Source: a virus. Taken from it: DNA of 34,269 nt. This document shows, in pieces, positions 17,161-29,618 of this stretch. The translations under genes and the position numbers were made by a program. The stretch is taken from the IMG/VR virus record IMGVR_UViG_3300048691_000015, positions 1 through 34,269 of that record, one strand, 5' to 3'. How positions within the stretch are numbered: the stretch's first letter is position 1; every line of letters begins with the position of its first letter. Below the pieces are notes generated by a model that was given only the letters and a program-made list of their open reading frames with translations, was not told the origin of the DNA and did not search any database.

Positions 17161-19236
17161 TTAGTCTGGTTCGCGTCTCTGTAGTGCTCTGCGTATGTCG
17201 TGTGTCTCTAAGTCCATACTAACATGATTTGCAATGCCAGTATGCTTTGAAATCATGTTCTCATAATTCTCCATATGATCGTTTAACTCATCTTCATCCC
17301 CATGATCTTCCGCATGCTTTTCTAATGTGGCTTGATGATCATATATTTTTGTATGTAGATTATCTACGTCATTTTCAAAGTCTGGGTGATCTTTTGGGGA
17401 TTCTTCGCCTTCGTACTTTTTACCAAACTTTGTTAGTTCGTGGTCAATATCATCTCTATGCAAATCTAGAACCTTATTGACAATTGCTTTTGATTGCGTA
17501 TTGGCAAACCTTCCGTTGTTCATCAGCGTTTTGAATTCATCATCATTAGTATGTTCCAAAATGCTTTTGGGAATTCTGGCTGGAGAATTCGATCTACCAA
17601 AATTGTTATTTTTATTGGTTGCGTTGTGAACCAATACGTCTTTGGCAACTTTTTGAGCATCTTCTACATGCGGCGATGTATTGTGTAATACTGACGTTGC
17701 ATGTTCTACGACTTCCACAGAGTCTGGCGACACATATGGCGAAAGTCCTAAGTGATATATGATATTCATGTGGGCTATACTATGACGTTTATCCGCAATC
17801 TTATCTGCATGCGCTTGTGTAAAATTATTTGAAGTCATAGCAGAACCATGAATATCGCGTCGTGAGTTAATTCCATGATCTATCAATTTATCAATGTGGT
17901 TTGCTGTAAGGGCTTTGCGAACATCGCTTAACCAATAAGAACTACCAGATTTACCATTGATGTACCCATTCACTAGCTTATCGACATGGTGTTCTTTCAA
18001 TCGGTTTGTCGGAACTTTTACGGTATCATCTTCTGATAAAGTATCAATGATGTGGTCTGGCAGTTTTTTGTTTGACAAAATATTAGATTTGTATGAGGTT
18101 GCCCCAGTCCTTGCGAGGTTTGCACGATACCGTTCAATGTTGTTTGTAGAAAACTTTTCACCGTGTTGGTAGGCCAATCCACCAGCAACATGAGTCGGGT
18201 CGTCAGATTCATTGATGATTCTGTTGACGTTATGGGTGTCCATATTGGTAATACCAATTCCGAGATTTACGGCAACATCTCTAGGAAGTTTTCCGCCAAC
18301 CGTGTCCTCAAATGCCTTGTTTATAGCATGGTGTGTATCTGGTGCGTTTAGTGTATAGTTTTGTCGATTGTTGCCTGTGTGAATTTTGTCCAAATCCTCT
18401 TTGGTTGGGTTATGATAGGTTGTTGTGCCTTCGCTATACAAATCGTCATGTAGGTTGTATGTTGTGCCACGTTTACCGGGGTAGTTCTTCATGGCCCAGT
18501 TATTCACGGCCCTATGGAAATCACTATTTCCCGCACCATATGTGCTGCCGCCAGCGCGGTAGATGCTATGTTCTTCTCCAGTGTCATCATCCTCACCAAC
18601 ATGTCGCTTCAAAGAAACCCTAGCAATCGGGTTAGAAGGCCATGCATCGCCCTTTGTAACGGAATCGTCGTCTGGGTGAACCAAGAACGCCTCGTGCGTA
18701 GCGTGAGCCATATCACGGTCTAGGTACTGTTTGTTAGACCCAGTTTCGGCATTCATACAGGATTCATTTGACCATCTTGTGCCGGAGGTTTTCCCAAAGA
18801 TTGCGTATGGGTGTGTAGAAATCAAAACTTTCAAACCATGCGATTTTGAACTTTGTCTTGCTTCATCATTTGCAAATGCATTCTTTACATGGTTAGGTGC
18901 CGAAGTTTTTTCAAGAACCTTTCCAATACTTTCATGAACTTCTTTGCTACGCATAGGGATTCCCATAGCCGGGTTCCCTACTTGCTTTTCAATTCTAGCA
19001 ATACCTTTCTTGTAGTCATGAATCTGGTAGCCGTGCTTTTCTAAGTGTTCTTTAACGTCAATATCGGGTTGTGCTTCTTGACCATGTACGTCTATAATAG
19101 CGTGGTTGCCCTTTGCACCAAACGCATTTCTGATAGCATCATGGGTGTCTTTGTCTAGGTCTTCTCCGTGCTCCGTCCAACTGCTATCTGCAAGGTCTTT
19201 TAATTGATAATTAACGGCTTCGTTTAGTTTATTCAT
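17161..19236 (-). CDS. Large protein of unknown function, paralogue of the 870-aa protein
   Basis: 691 aa, ATG at 19236 with GGGGAA 6 nt upstream. The first ~290 residues parallel the 870-aa protein: EKHGYQIHDYKKGIA, SIGKVLEK, SGTRWSNESCM (W155, C160), NPIARVSLKRHV, SIYRAGGSTYG, and a W..K..P....Y segment. The central part has loose repeats built around H+DKL+..G (for example KEHHVDKLVNGYIN and TANHIDKLIDHGIN), like helical repeats in other phage proteins. The C-terminus is acidic and helical, and there is no ParB-like domain. I do not recognise a function. The conserved W/C/H/R/Y residues suggest a real active or binding site. It is transcribed away from dut. Confidence 0.65.
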   Translation of the reverse strand: MNKLNEAVNYQLKDLADSSWTEHGEDLDKDTHDAIRNAFGAKGNHAIIDVHGQEAQPDIDVKEHLEKHGYQIHDYKKGIARIEKQVGNPAMGIPMRSKEVHESIGKVLEKTSAPNHVKNAFANDEARQSSKSHGLKVLISTHPYAIFGKTSGTRWSNESCMNAETGSNKQYLDRDMAHATHEAFLVHPDDDSVTKGDAWPSNPIARVSLKRHVGEDDDTGEEHSIYRAGGSTYGAGNSDFHRAVNNWAMKNYPGKRGTTYNLHDDLYSEGTTTYHNPTKEDLDKIHTGNNRQNYTLNAPDTHHAINKAFEDTVGGKLPRDVAVNLGIGITNMDTHNVNRIINESDDPTHVAGGLAYQHGEKFSTNNIERYRANLARTGATSYKSNILSNKKLPDHIIDTLSEDDTVKVPTNRLKEHHVDKLVNGYINGKSGSSYWLSDVRKALTANHIDKLIDHGINSRRDIHGSAMTSNNFTQAHADKIADKRHSIAHMNIIYHLGLSPYVSPDSVEVVEHATSVLHNTSPHVEDAQKVAKDVLVHNATNKNNNFGRSNSPARIPKSILEHTNDDEFKTLMNNGRFANTQSKAIVNKVLDLHRDDIDHELTKFGKKYEGEESPKDHPDFENDVDNLHTKIYDHQATLEKHAEDHGDEDELNDHMENYENMISKHTGIANHVSMDLETHDIRRALQRREPD

Positions 19237-19728: not shown

Positions 19729-22293
19729 ATGAATTGTTTGTATTGTGAATCTGATAACCTTCGCAACAAAGGGTATAGTACCCGCGCAAATGGTGTTGTC
19801 TTCCGTAGATACCATTGTAAAGATTGTGGGGAGTATTCTTCTTATGAGGTGACCCCGGTTGCTATCGAACCGACACAACCAGAAGAAAAGAAACCATCCA
19901 AGAAGTCTATTGAGGCAGAACTAACAGAACTTGGAGACTATGTAGGTATTGTTGTAACTTCTGCAATGAACGATACGGCTTTGCACAAACCATTCTTCAA
20001 TAATTTGGTCCGGTACTGCGATGAAAACCGTCTACGCCTGTTTGTAATCAAGAACAAGTACAACAACCCATCATTGCTAAATTCTCAGCAGGATGTGACA
20101 TACCCACCAGAACTTGTACCGTACTTCCTAGATACAACTTTCCGATACAAGGACAAATTTAAGGTCATTGGGGACTGTAACATCATTGCTACAGCCTCAC
20201 ACCCACTGACCGGAATTGATGGCCTTACGGAAGGGATTACGACCATTGTAGGGCACCCTGTGATGCAGATGCTGACATTACCAGTCAATGAGTGGAAATC
20301 CCCAGTAATTATGCACAGCACTGGTAGCGTTTCTATGAAGAATAACTACTCGGCAAGCAAAGCGGGATATCGTGCAAGTTTTCACCATTGTTGGTCTGCA
20401 TTAGTAATCGAAATTGATGCCGAAGATGATTTCCACATCCGACAGCTTTGTGCGACACAGAATGGGTCTTTCTATGACCTGAATGAGCATTGGGATGAAG
20501 GTGGTGTAACCTATGACAACCACATTGATGCCATTGTGACGGGTGACGAGCATTCTATATTCCGTGATGAAGATGTAGAAAGGGCCACGTATGGATATAA
20601 TGGTATTGTGGATAGATTGAAGCCTAAGTACATTATCCGTGGGGATGTGTTCGACGGTCATTCAATTTCGCACCATCACACCAATGACTTCTTTACGCAA
20701 TACAAGAAGCACATTGTAGAATCAAAGTATGGAAATTTGCAGCATGAACTTGACGATATGGTCGAGTACATTGGTAGGACAACCCCACCATTTGCACAAT
20801 CTTTGTTAGTCTATGGTAACCACGAAAGTCATCTAGACAAATGGCTAAACGTGGCAGACCCTAAGAAAGATTTGGTCAATGCAAAGTTGTACCATAAGTT
20901 GATGTATGACCGCCTAGAGAACATGGAAGAAGGAAAATCAACCCCGGCGGTAATTTCTTATATTGCTAAACACCTAGAAGAAACTGTGTGTAAGCCATGT
21001 CCAGAAGGTTTTACAATTCATGGCGTACTTCTATCAGAACATGGCGATAAAGGGCCAAACGGTGCTAGAGGGTCTGCACAAAACTTGTCGAAGATTGGAG
21101 AGAAGTCCATCCTAGGCCATTCTCATTGTTTGACGGATGACCATTCTGCACTAACTCAAACTGGTTGGAAAAAGGTATATAATATTGATGTTGGTGAATT
21201 AGTTTTGACGTATGACTACACTACTAAATCTAATGTGTGGTTGCCAAATAAAAAAACCCATGTCATGCAACATAGTGGAAAACTTGTTAATATAAACACA
21301 AACAATATACAGCAGTCAGTAACACCAAATCACATGTTATCGCTTTCTGATGGTAGATATATTAACGTGTGTGAAGCCATAACAACGGAGATGCCAGCAC
21401 TAATCCCAGTTTCCGCTTGTAATAGAGTCACAAATCCGAACATCATTGAAGTTGGTTTGAGTGATTTAGAGTTGAAAAAAATTGTTGCATTTTGCGCGGA
21501 TGGTCACGTTTCATTTACTGATAATGGAAGCCCTGTATATAGATTTCATATCAAGAAATCTAGGAAGATTGACAGACTGTATGAATTTTTTGGAAAAGAC
21601 TATACGCCAATGTCTGCAAAGAACTTCGGAAAAACTGGTTCGACTAAAATTTCGATTGCTGCTGGTACAGAATCTTATAATTTTTTGAAAAAATGGATTC
21701 CAATGCCAAAACGACTTCCTGAATTTTTCAGAACTCTATCCCCTTCGCAAAAGGAAGTTGTTATTGATGAATTGAAGTATTGGGATGGCACATTCGATAC
21801 TGGAACAAACGCGAGGCAATATTCAACTGCTAAACTCGAAGAAGTTGATCTGATTTCTTCAATCTTGGTAGAATTGGGGTATAGGACAAGTGTAATAAAC
21901 AGGGAATTCCATAAAAATAGAAACCACGCACCATCATTTGTAATAACATGGAACCATGATAAAAATATGCACACTGGGCCAGCTAAGGCTTCATGTCAGC
22001 CGGTTAGATATAAGTCGTGGGGAGTTACAATCACCACGGTTGATAATATTAGGGTATCTTGTTTAGAGACAGACAATAAAAATTTTTGGGTCAGAAATGA
22101 CAAGTACGGAAAGGTGTCACTGACTGGGAATTCTCCTAAGATCATAGCAGGGACGTTCCAAGTAGGTACATCATCAAAGCTAAAATTGGAGTACAATAAA
22201 GGCCCATCGTCATGGATGCATACACATTGCATTTTGCACAAGAATGGGAAGCGCCAAATGATTAACATTATCAATGGAAAATGGCATTCTTAA
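19729..22293 (+). CDS. Zinc-ribbon metallophosphoesterase interrupted by an intein
   Basis: 854 codons, of which 335 (467-801) are an intein; the spliced product would be 519 aa. The N-terminus is a zinc ribbon (C3, C6, C30, C33). The phosphoesterase motifs are GDEH (272-275), GDVFDGH (305-311), GNHE (363-366), SEHGD (436-440) and, after splicing, GHSHSP. The size and the GDVFDGHSISHHHTND segment remind me of the T5 A1 host-DNA-degradation protein, but I cannot confirm that. The likely action is phosphodiester cleavage of nucleic acid with two metals. Without splicing the GHxH site is broken, so activity should depend on the intein. It follows dut by 3 nt. Confidence 0.8.
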   Translation: MNCLYCESDNLRNKGYSTRANGVVFRRYHCKDCGEYSSYEVTPVAIEPTQPEEKKPSKKSIEAELTELGDYVGIVVTSAMNDTALHKPFFNNLVRYCDENRLRLFVIKNKYNNPSLLNSQQDVTYPPELVPYFLDTTFRYKDKFKVIGDCNIIATASHPLTGIDGLTEGITTIVGHPVMQMLTLPVNEWKSPVIMHSTGSVSMKNNYSASKAGYRASFHHCWSALVIEIDAEDDFHIRQLCATQNGSFYDLNEHWDEGGVTYDNHIDAIVTGDEHSIFRDEDVERATYGYNGIVDRLKPKYIIRGDVFDGHSISHHHTNDFFTQYKKHIVESKYGNLQHELDDMVEYIGRTTPPFAQSLLVYGNHESHLDKWLNVADPKKDLVNAKLYHKLMYDRLENMEEGKSTPAVISYIAKHLEETVCKPCPEGFTIHGVLLSEHGDKGPNGARGSAQNLSKIGEKSILGHSHCLTDDHSALTQTGWKKVYNIDVGELVLTYDYTTKSNVWLPNKKTHVMQHSGKLVNINTNNIQQSVTPNHMLSLSDGRYINVCEAITTEMPALIPVSACNRVTNPNIIEVGLSDLELKKIVAFCADGHVSFTDNGSPVYRFHIKKSRKIDRLYEFFGKDYTPMSAKNFGKTGSTKISIAAGTESYNFLKKWIPMPKRLPEFFRTLSPSQKEVVIDELKYWDGTFDTGTNARQYSTAKLEEVDLISSILVELGYRTSVINREFHKNRNHAPSFVITWNHDKNMHTGPAKASCQPVRYKSWGVTITTVDNIRVSCLETDNKNFWVRNDKYGKVSLTGNSPKIIAGTFQVGTSSKLKLEYNKGPSSWMHTHCILHKNGKRQMINIINGKWHS
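21127..22131 (+). mobile_element. Intein with LAGLIDADG-like homing endonuclease motifs
   Basis: Starts at C467 directly after GHSH and ends at N801, followed by S802. Block A is CLTDDHSALTQTGWKKVYN and block B is QQSVTPNHMLSL (T..H). Two LAGLIDADG-type motifs are visible: LKKIVAFCADGHVSF (582-596) and VIDELKYWDGTFDT (about 678-691). Block F is VSCLETDNKNFWVRND and block G is VSLTGN. The penultimate residue is Gly rather than the usual His. The DNA is more AT-rich than the flanking exteins. Both the splicing residues (C, TxxH, N, S) and the endonuclease acidic residues are present. Confidence 0.9.
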
Positions 22294-26657: not shown

Positions 26658-28715
26658 CTATGATAGTCTAGTCATCTCGATAGCTTTCATGGCACTGTAG
26701 TAGCTATCGTTGTTTCTTGTTGACAATGATGCAGATTTTTCTGGAGAACTATTCATACCACTTTGCTGTGCTGGCGCAGATTGTTGGTTGTTGATAATGA
26801 TATGCGAACCGCCAGAACCACTGTCGCCATTCACCGCAGCAGTTTGAGATAATCGGTCATCATTAAGTTTTTTGCGCAAATCTGGTCTTGTGGATGATTC
26901 GACCCCGACACCACCAACCCGGTTATTCTTCCCGATGTTCCCAGTCGCACCAGTTCCGGCACCACTAGATGATTCGTTGGTGGCTTTATTAGACCTTACA
27001 CCACTGTTGATTACAACCTTATCCCCATTGGCCTTATCAACCCCCGAACCAGAGCCAGTATTAGCCCCTCCAGCAGCATTTGAGGATGATTGCGTATCTA
27101 CCCCCTTGCGAACGTCTACAGACCCTTCTGAGCCAGTTTTAGTCCCACTATCAACCTCATCCATCTTTTCTACTTTCTTGCGCACTTCGGCACCACGGCG
27201 CTTCAACAATGCTGCGATGTTTACAACAAATTCGGAAACTGACAAGGCAACACCCTTGCGAGAAACTATTTCAAGGTTTGCGGTGTATTGGTCTGCGCCA
27301 ATGTGCTTCTTAATAGAATCGCTCGGTGAATTTATGTACGCGCCTATGACAGCTTTGCCTCGACCTGCTCCGAATAGGTGTAGGATATACAAGTCCACGT
27401 CCCTACTACCCGTTGTAAGTTTTCCCAAAATTTGTATGTTTTCTCTACGCAATAATGCGTACATCACAGAAGATTTAAGTGGGTCTAAACGGTCATCCTT
27501 ACCCGATATAATAGCCTCACCAATACCATATTGGGTTGCTATGTCTTTGTTTTTCTTTATTAACTTATTCCATGTATCTGGAATGAATTGAAACAACCCC
27601 CTAGCAGCACTGGTCTTTGGTGCAGCATTTGAGTCTAGGGAAGATTCCTGCATAGCGGCAGTCAACATCTCGTTTTTAGGTATGTCGAACTTTTCGGAAA
27701 CTTTAGTGATAGCGTCTACGGCATCTTTACTATCTTTGGAAAGTTCGGTAGACTTTTTATTCACGTCTTTCATCTGCACGGAACCACCGCTAACCATAGC
27801 TTCGGATGCACTTGCAACCGGGGTCTTCGAGAAGTAATCCCCGGCACTTTCACCAGCAATACCACCAAGGTAGCTAAGTGTTGGTACAGCTAGGAATGCT
27901 AGAGGCCCAGTGAGGGCACCTAATCCAGCACCTAATGTAGAACCTATGGCCTTTCCACCATTGCGGTAGTTTGATTCCTTTTGCTTCTGATCTCTTGCTT
28001 CTTTTGATAATTCTCCGGCCCTATACTGTTCTTCTATCTGCTTGGATTCCGTAATACTGTCATACAGCGCCATACCACCGCCGAATGCGGCACCGACCAA
28101 AGAACCTTTTAAGAACTTGCTACCAAGCTGGATTGCCTTGCCGGGTGTAGGCGTACCGGGAGTAGGTGCCCCCGGAGTAGGTGCCCCCGGTGTAGGAGTG
28201 CCGGGTGTAGGCTTTGGTGTCCCACCCTTATTAGGCAACATCCCCGGCAAACTAAACCCACCAGAACCACCAGCAGAAGCAAGTTCTTCCTTGATGATTT
28301 TCCGAATGTTCTTTAAATCTTCTGGGAATAGTACCGTGGTCGCACTGGAAGAAAACTTAGACGATTCGGAAGAAGCCCACTCCGCAGACCGTTGGCTTGC
28401 ATCTGCAAGAGAATTAGTTGACTTTTGTGCGGTGTTTATCGAAGCAAGTTTTGAAAGCTGCTTGTCGATTCCAGATACCAAAGCCTTTTGCTGAACGACT
28501 AATTCATGACTTTGTGCTTGATTCTTTTCGGTTTGTCTATCGTGGCCCACATCGCCAACAGGTACAATCTCACGACTATTTGATAGAGCAGTTTCGCGCT
28601 TTATGGCAACATCTTGAACCACCATAGCAGCACGACCAACCTTAGATGTTGGTATGCTAAAAGCCCGCTTTGTGGGTGCGGTGGTCCTGCGTTTTGCTTT
28701 GCGTAGTGATGCCAT
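26658..28715 (-). CDS. Tail-associated lytic transglycosylase-like protein
   Basis: 685 aa. The basic N-terminus is followed by a helical region, a low-complexity linker of PTPG(A/T) repeats (about 168-192), a Gly/Ala-rich membrane-like segment (about 205-290), and an SLT-type lysozyme domain: EMLTAAMQESSLDSNA (catalytic E357), TSAARGLFQFIPDTWN and YILHLFGAGRGKAV. The C-terminal third is Ser/Gly/Asn-rich and disordered. The domain cleaves peptidoglycan, so the protein probably opens the cell wall during tail penetration. It is the last gene of the baseplate operon. Confidence 0.8.
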   Translation of the reverse strand: MASLRKAKRRTTAPTKRAFSIPTSKVGRAAMVVQDVAIKRETALSNSREIVPVGDVGHDRQTEKNQAQSHELVVQQKALVSGIDKQLSKLASINTAQKSTNSLADASQRSAEWASSESSKFSSSATTVLFPEDLKNIRKIIKEELASAGGSGGFSLPGMLPNKGGTPKPTPGTPTPGAPTPGAPTPGTPTPGKAIQLGSKFLKGSLVGAAFGGGMALYDSITESKQIEEQYRAGELSKEARDQKQKESNYRNGGKAIGSTLGAGLGALTGPLAFLAVPTLSYLGGIAGESAGDYFSKTPVASASEAMVSGGSVQMKDVNKKSTELSKDSKDAVDAITKVSEKFDIPKNEMLTAAMQESSLDSNAAPKTSAARGLFQFIPDTWNKLIKKNKDIATQYGIGEAIISGKDDRLDPLKSSVMYALLRRENIQILGKLTTGSRDVDLYILHLFGAGRGKAVIGAYINSPSDSIKKHIGADQYTANLEIVSRKGVALSVSEFVVNIAALLKRRGAEVRKKVEKMDEVDSGTKTGSEGSVDVRKGVDTQSSSNAAGGANTGSGSGVDKANGDKVVINSGVRSNKATNESSSGAGTGATGNIGKNNRVGGVGVESSTRPDLRKKLNDDRLSQTAAVNGDSGSGGSHIIINNQQSAPAQQSGMNSSPEKSASLSTRNNDSYYSAMKAIEMTRLS

Positions 28716-28749: not shown

Positions 28750-28929
28750 TTACATAGCTTTATTACGCTCTTTCTCTTCCTTCTTTAGAATGTTTATCAT
28801 GTCCACGTAAGCACCTAGCTCAAATGGAATCATGTCTTCTAATTCGGTAAGACTAAAGTATTTGTTTTTAAGTAGTTGTGCGACCTGTCGGTAATGGGTA
28901 AACAAATCCCCACTATCGACAGTTATACG
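28750..28929 (-). CDS. -1 frame extension of the gp26-like protein
   Basis: After slipping one base back at T_TTT_TTC, reading continues CGT ATA ACT and runs 59 codons to TAA at 28750. The peptide has HYRQVAQLLKNKYFSLTELE and DMIPFELGAYVDMINILKK. The segment 'KYSLTE+E.M+PWE...Y...L' is one I recall at or after the C-terminus of gp26-type proteins of related phages, which suggests real coding. No ATG lies near the beginning of this frame, so it is best explained as a frameshift extension (fusion of 289 aa). Internal initiation is the alternative. Confidence 0.75.
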   Translation of the reverse strand, partial: RITVDSGDLFTHYRQVAQLLKNKYFSLTELEDMIPFELGAYVDMINILKKEEKERNKAM

Positions 28930-28937
28930 AAAAAATC
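28885..28937 (-). promoter_or_regulatory. Programmed -1 frameshift signal
   Basis: The heptamer T_TTT_TTC lies in the correct frame (28935-28929) of the gp26-like gene. It is followed by a 6-nt spacer GTATAA and a hairpin at 28922-28885: the lower stem CTGTCG/CGACAG is 6 perfect pairs, then one A/C mismatch, then TAGTGGG/CCCATTA is 7 pairs including one G-U, with a loop of about 10 nt. This is the standard three-part -1 frameshift layout. Confidence 0.8.
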
Positions 28938-29618
28938 TAGGACACCTTTGAGGTCTGCTTGAATTTTCTTAGAACATTTTGTGCACGTTGCTGTTGCGTT
29001 TGTGAAGCAATATGGCTGTGTGTTGATGAACTCGTTAATCTTCTCGAAGTCTTCATTGAGTAAACCATCTAGGTACTCTGATAATTCTTCTTCATTGAAT
29101 TCATCATAGACCCCATCGGCATCATAGATGCTTACCACAGAATTAAAGATAGTTTCATTTTGATTGGTCATCGAAAGTGTCTGCTTCATACAGATACCAG
29201 ATTCTTCATCAAACGGGACCACCCAATAGTTCTTGCGGCGGACATACTTATCTTTAAGTTTGTCTAGGCCAATCACTTGAATGTTGTCTAGATTGATTGA
29301 TGTTTGGTGCGTAGCCGGACAACCATCCGTACCACAATCATGACTAAATTCTGCTGCCGCCACATTCGATATAGAAACTGACATTAGCCGAGTAAACAAG
29401 AATTCAAAATCCGCATCACACAACGCATCCCAATTGACATTGGTACAGTTTTCGATGACTTGTTTGATAGAATTGACAATCTCGGTTGGGTCATTGCCAG
29501 CCGCCGCCATCATCATAATCTTTTGTTCTTTTACGGTGTATGGACGGTACTTGACAACCAAGTCTGCTACTGGTAAAGTGGTTTCATACTCCGGCAAATC
29601 GCGTTTAGGTAGTTTCAT
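28923..29618 (-). CDS. 26: Baseplate hub/assembly protein, gp26-like (zero-frame product)
   Basis: 231 aa. MKLPKRDLPEYETTLPVADL and VKYRPYTVKEQKIMMMAA match the opening of gp26-like proteins in T4 relatives (TTLP..G..+.YRP+LVKEEK). Two Cys pairs, HDCGTDGCP and TCTKCSKK, plus a C-terminal LKGVLDFF complete the usual pattern (C..C......L.GL.DFF). gp26 takes part in baseplate hub assembly in T4. The gene ends in a slippery T_TTT_TTC followed by GTA TAA, and a -1 frame continues for 59 codons. It lies 16 nt after the gp54/48-like gene. Confidence 0.7.
   Translation of the reverse strand: MKLPKRDLPEYETTLPVADLVVKYRPYTVKEQKIMMMAAAGNDPTEIVNSIKQVIENCTNVNWDALCDADFEFLFTRLMSVSISNVAAAEFSHDCGTDGCPATHQTSINLDNIQVIGLDKLKDKYVRRKNYWVVPFDEESGICMKQTLSMTNQNETIFNSVVSIYDADGVYDEFNEEELSEYLDGLLNEDFEKINEFINTQPYCFTNATATCTKCSKKIQADLKGVLDFFV

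Follow-up and report, generated by a model that had tools for sequence, protein, structure and literature searches.

A conserved slippery signal at the end of gp26-like genes points to −1 frameshifting in a putative tail assembly chaperone gene of T4-like phages

Introduction

The tail chaperones E and E' of phage P2 are produced by a −1 frameshift. The frameshift signal of Escherichia coli dnaX comprises an upstream Shine-Dalgarno (SD)-like element, a slippery heptamer and a downstream hairpin. The gpG and gpGT tail chaperones of phage lambda likewise arise by a −1 frameshift (PMC5009743). As Vladimirov et al. (2022) are cited in PMC10885494 and PMC12846349, the tail assembly chaperones of T4-like phages come as short/long pairs; according to PMC10885494, the same authors described separate genes for the short and the long chaperone, in place of frameshifting, in some T4-like phages, and PMC12846349 (2025) names them as its source on poly-T frameshift signals in the chaperone genes of T4-like phages. 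Given that two separate genes are, by these accounts, published for phages close to T4, a long form can be obtained without a shift. Frameshifted tail-assembly chaperones, including those of T4-like phages, are an already known theme.

The window analysed here is the whole 34,269-nucleotide stretch of IMG/VR virus record IMGVR_UViG_3300048691_000015. A reading made from its sequence alone had proposed that a gp26-like gene in the window ends in a complete −1 frameshift signal, and had added that no description of this was known for T4-type gp26. The latter statement has to be corrected in view of the T4-like chaperone pairs that PMC10885494 and PMC12846349 attribute to Vladimirov et al. (2022), and these pairs, together with the poly-T signals, reduce the novelty of the proposal. 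What may be unreported is the near-universality of the signal outside the T4 group and its upstream SD-like stimulator.

Results

The gp26-like gene lies on the minus strand (29618..28923), and its 231-aa short product matches PF12322 (T4_baseplate; E 3.4e-38) and phrog_150 (E 2.6e-39). Its 3' end reads CTA GAT TTT TTC GTA TAA on that strand, the last five codons as the sequence-only reading had them, with an in-frame T_TTT_TTC heptamer at 28929..28935 (−) and the TAA of the unshifted frame one codon further on, at 28923..28925 (−). The −1 frame was also found to stay open for the 59 codons that had been claimed after the heptamer (28753..28929, −), up to a TAA at 28752..28750 (−), and the frame arithmetic reproduces the expected product pair, namely a predicted short form of 231 aa and a predicted long form of 230 + 59 = 289 aa with the junction peptide LDFF-RITVDSGDLFTHYR. 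The extension matches phrog_634 (E 2.6e-11), 'baseplate hub assembly catalyst', which is the T4 gp51 family, and when aligned with related ORFs, as had been suggested, it proved to be conserved across very distant relatives. The sequence-only reading had described it as a gp26-associated tail in related phages; it is homologous to the C-terminal part of T4 gp51. AlphaFold modelled the short form with high confidence (pLDDT 92); the model had no structure match in the PDB with E ≤ 0.001, and a sequence search against solved structures returned no match for the gp26-like protein. These two comparisons gave no support for fold kinship with solved tail chaperones.

Upstream of the gp26-like gene, PHROG matches mark a gp4-like head closure gene, a gp2-like DNA end protector gene and a tail tube gene, and this gene order is that of distant T4-like phages such as nt-1. 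The next gene (26658..28715, −) encodes a 685-aa protein with an SLT transglycosylase domain (PF01464, E 3.5e-07; phrog_4067, transglycosylase, E 3.6e-21), possibly a tape-measure or hub protein; among the equivalents of this gene in relatives, tape measure family matches were confined to a weak one in phiM7. Within the same ORF, the region 28109-28282 encodes a PTPGTPTPGAPTPG-type proline-rich repeat and then a hydrophobic glycine-rich stretch. Elsewhere in the window, an 854-aa protein (19729..22293, +) matches phrog_1745, 'DNA transfer protein' (E 3.8e-119), and for a 691-aa ORF (17164..19236, −) neither Pfam nor PHROG gave a match at E ≤ 0.1.

The sequence-only reading had staked its proposal on conservation of the slippery site in relatives. 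Homologous loci were picked by similarity of the gp26 or extension protein, independently of the DNA site, and most of them come from the 80 best-scoring matches among at least 593; 101 loci came from the first sets and 37 were added later. An in-frame T_TTT_TTN lies close to the stop in 138 of the 138 gp26-like genes that reach their stop, without exception, although these loci are akin to one another and the counts are not independent. The 138 loci contain 123 distinct junction sequences, most of them strongly diverged, and amino acid identity to the window is mostly 25-35%. Among the named phages are Kyanoviridae cyanophages, Melnitz-3, phiM7, OLIVR5, ORM_20, BUCT608, Aeromonas phages 65 and Aswh_1, and Vibrio phages nt-1 and EniLVp02; viral contigs and two MAG-binned contigs complete the set. 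A genome scan added two distant loci, and both have the slippery site. A search for close relatives of the window found only five loci (L001-L005), and the phage collection held no relatives at the nucleotide level. The stop follows the heptamer after one codon in 76 of 93 loci, after 0-3 codons in 92 and after 8 codons in the remaining one. Wherever the contig continues, a conserved gp51-like segment is found in the −1 frame 3' of the gp26-like stop; in a few loci (L044, L061) it is clipped by the contig end.

Two candidate stimulatory elements flank the heptamer, both seen as sequence features. Upstream, an SD-like element, AAAGGTGT (28942..28949, −), pairs with the anti-SD at −6.4 kcal/mol and is a probable frameshift stimulator. 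It ends 6 nt before the heptamer in the window and about 6-9 nt before it across the loci, where the mean anti-SD energy in 8-nt windows is −5.4 kcal/mol at the element versus about −1 slightly further upstream. The element is stronger than in synonymous codon shuffles (z −7.2, 99 loci), and at four control positions the same shuffles gave nothing of similar size; part of the signal is due to conserved E/K-G residues.

Downstream, folding bore out the hairpin that had been described six bases after the heptamer (28885..28922, −), with a perfect 6-bp lower stem (CTGTCG/CGACAG) and an upper stem of 7 pairs, one of them G-U (TAGTGGG/CCCATTA). Its energy is −18.5 kcal/mol (z −4.92; 0 of 200 shuffles were as stable), and the 6-nt spacer is GTATAA (28928..28923). 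L003 retains the hairpin with one-sided pair changes and the loss of one pair, and in L005 the stem is largely lost; judged from these comparisons, the hairpin is lineage-specific, its conservation being limited to the lineage of the nearest relative (the window and L003, not L005). Structure downstream of the heptamer is weakly enriched, with z < −2 in 25% of loci versus 7% of control windows, and the mean folding energy over all loci did not differ from that of controls. A general conserved hairpin was rejected on these figures and on the loss of the stem in L005.

We compared the predicted pair with T4 gp26 and gp51. A profile of the fused product scores 90.7 bits with T4 gp26, along the short part alone, and 46.9 bits with T4 gp51, where the alignment crosses the junction and reaches the end, and a profile of the extension only matches T4 gp51 residues 200-246 (protein score 26.5 bits). 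T4 gp51, of 249 aa, matches the long product across the junction in a single frame, and matches spanning 80% or more of it occur in 1,334 phage records. T4 gene 26 ends in GAG TTC TTT GAG TTA CTA TAA, an end in which no slippery site was seen, and in the −1 frame that follows lies gene 25, not a gp51-like segment. Since T4 gp26 corresponds to the short form and T4 gp51 to the long form, T4 appears to use two genes where the others use a shift.

Could the heptamer be there by chance, or through sequencing error, with the extension a decayed remnant? Six-T runs are common in AT-rich genes and the site encodes Phe-Phe, yet of the 87 FF dipeptides in other parts of these genes only 8 have the slippery codon configuration, as against every one of the 138 sites near the stop, so that the conservation exceeds chance. 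The extension is moreover conserved, and its divergence is concentrated in third codon positions in two of the three pairs compared, which speaks against decay. With the comparative data already contradicting it, this is the least credible of the alternatives. RNA polymerase slippage at the T-run, which would put a subset of mRNAs into a changed frame, is only slightly less improbable. Although T-runs of 8-9 occur in 11 of 101 loci, 61 of the 101, the window among them, have exactly six T followed by another base, and a run of six is short for efficient transcriptional slippage. What is invariant is a frame-locked heptamer suited to tandem slippage, and an SD-like element that would act on ribosomes is favoured nearby.

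More has been said, in the records at least, for a small separate gene (gp51) with its own start codon, or one translated by termination-reinitiation at the gp26 stop. The extension is listed there as a gene of its own, either 'baseplate hub assembly catalyst' or hypothetical; in nt-1, BUCT608 and EniLVp02 its start, as annotated, shares bases with the gp26 stop (TAATG or TGATG), and the window offers a TTG at 28905. The annotated starts, however, vary between records, some lying deep inside the conserved segment, and homology extends upstream beyond them, as far as the heptamer and, for T4 gp51, across its position. A downstream start with a conserved ribosome site was the observation that the sequence-only reading had named as counting against it; none was found consistently among the 101 loci. 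In 82 of them, the first 40 extension codons offer no start codon that has an SD match of as little as 4 nt, while at the start of gp26 itself, used as a control, 80 of 100 show one; in 8 of 93 loci the first 22 extension codons contain no ATG, GTG or TTG at all. A start belonging to the extension is not supported, and it would leave the invariant in-frame heptamer unexplained. We regard a separate gene as very unlikely, if less so than the two explanations above, and favour −1 frameshifting at the heptamer.

The records themselves treat the extension in different ways. It is annotated as a small gene with inconsistent starts in L008 (3711-3896), L009 (3750-3893) and L106 (2265-2402) and is absent from the annotation of L094, L098, L099 and L100. 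In L095 (3813), L096 (3229) and L104 (2181), which are Vibrio and Stenotrophomonas phages, the gp26 end has a stop-start overlap (TAATG/TGATG) in addition to the slippery site; these overlapping codons could permit reinitiation as well.

Discussion

Based on the conservation and homology described above, we conclude, with a probability of roughly 0.93, that the gp26-like gene is a T4-type tail/baseplate-hub assembly chaperone gene predicted to be decoded into two proteins by a −1 frameshift. The conserved slip signal at its end is almost certainly real, judging by the comparative data. What the data show is the site, the frame, their conservation, the homology and the collinear T4 gp51; the slippage itself, and its rate, we infer, and the role in tail assembly is a putative one, drawn from the genetics of T4 and from cited work. 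Most ribosomes would terminate at the TAA and release the 231-aa short form. A minority would pause at U_UUU_UUC, aided by pairing of the upstream SD-like element with 16S rRNA and, in the window, also by the downstream hairpin; both tRNA-Phe would slip one base back, and the shifted ribosomes would translate 59 further codons to yield the 289-aa long form with its gp51-type tail. The two forms may act jointly, with the short form in excess of the long, as with lambda gpG/gpGT, and the tail segment of the long form may recruit another tail component.

One could envisage further that frameshifting between gp26 and gp51 is general outside the T4 group, directed by a conserved signal and probably ancestral, and that T4 genes 26 and 51 are a derived duplication. 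We advance this tentatively, at slightly less than even odds, and hold with similar reserve that the conserved signal consists of the SD-like element, T_TTT_TTN and a stop usually within one codon. If true, the derived duplication in T4 fixed both products as separate genes. Misannotation of the −1 extension is likely to be widespread in phage records, and many T4-like genomes would then carry two annotated genes in place of a single shifted one. The assembly role becomes testable, as synonymous substitutions at a single site of a cultured laboratory phage should alter the ratio of the two forms.

Among known systems, T4 gp26 and gp51 belong to the same protein family as the predicted pair, gp26 corresponding to the short form and gp51 to the long form, including its C-terminal tail; they differ in being two separate genes, whereas the window has one gene with a −1 shift. 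The loci of Kyanoviridae and of distant T4-like phages (S-B68, Syn19, phiM7, Melnitz-3, nt-1) share the heptamer class, its position, the frame and the extension with the window, but most lack its strong hairpin and are annotated as two genes. With lambda gpG/gpGT and P2 E/E', the locus would share a short/long pair, predicted here, that results from a −1 shift close to the 3' end of a gene for tail assembly, although no match of the gp26-like protein to a solved structure was found in sequence or fold. E. coli dnaX is another gene with another slippery heptamer, and the SD spacing here (about 6-9 nt) is shorter than that of dnaX, but the layout is the same in its three parts, an SD-like element, a heptamer and a hairpin.
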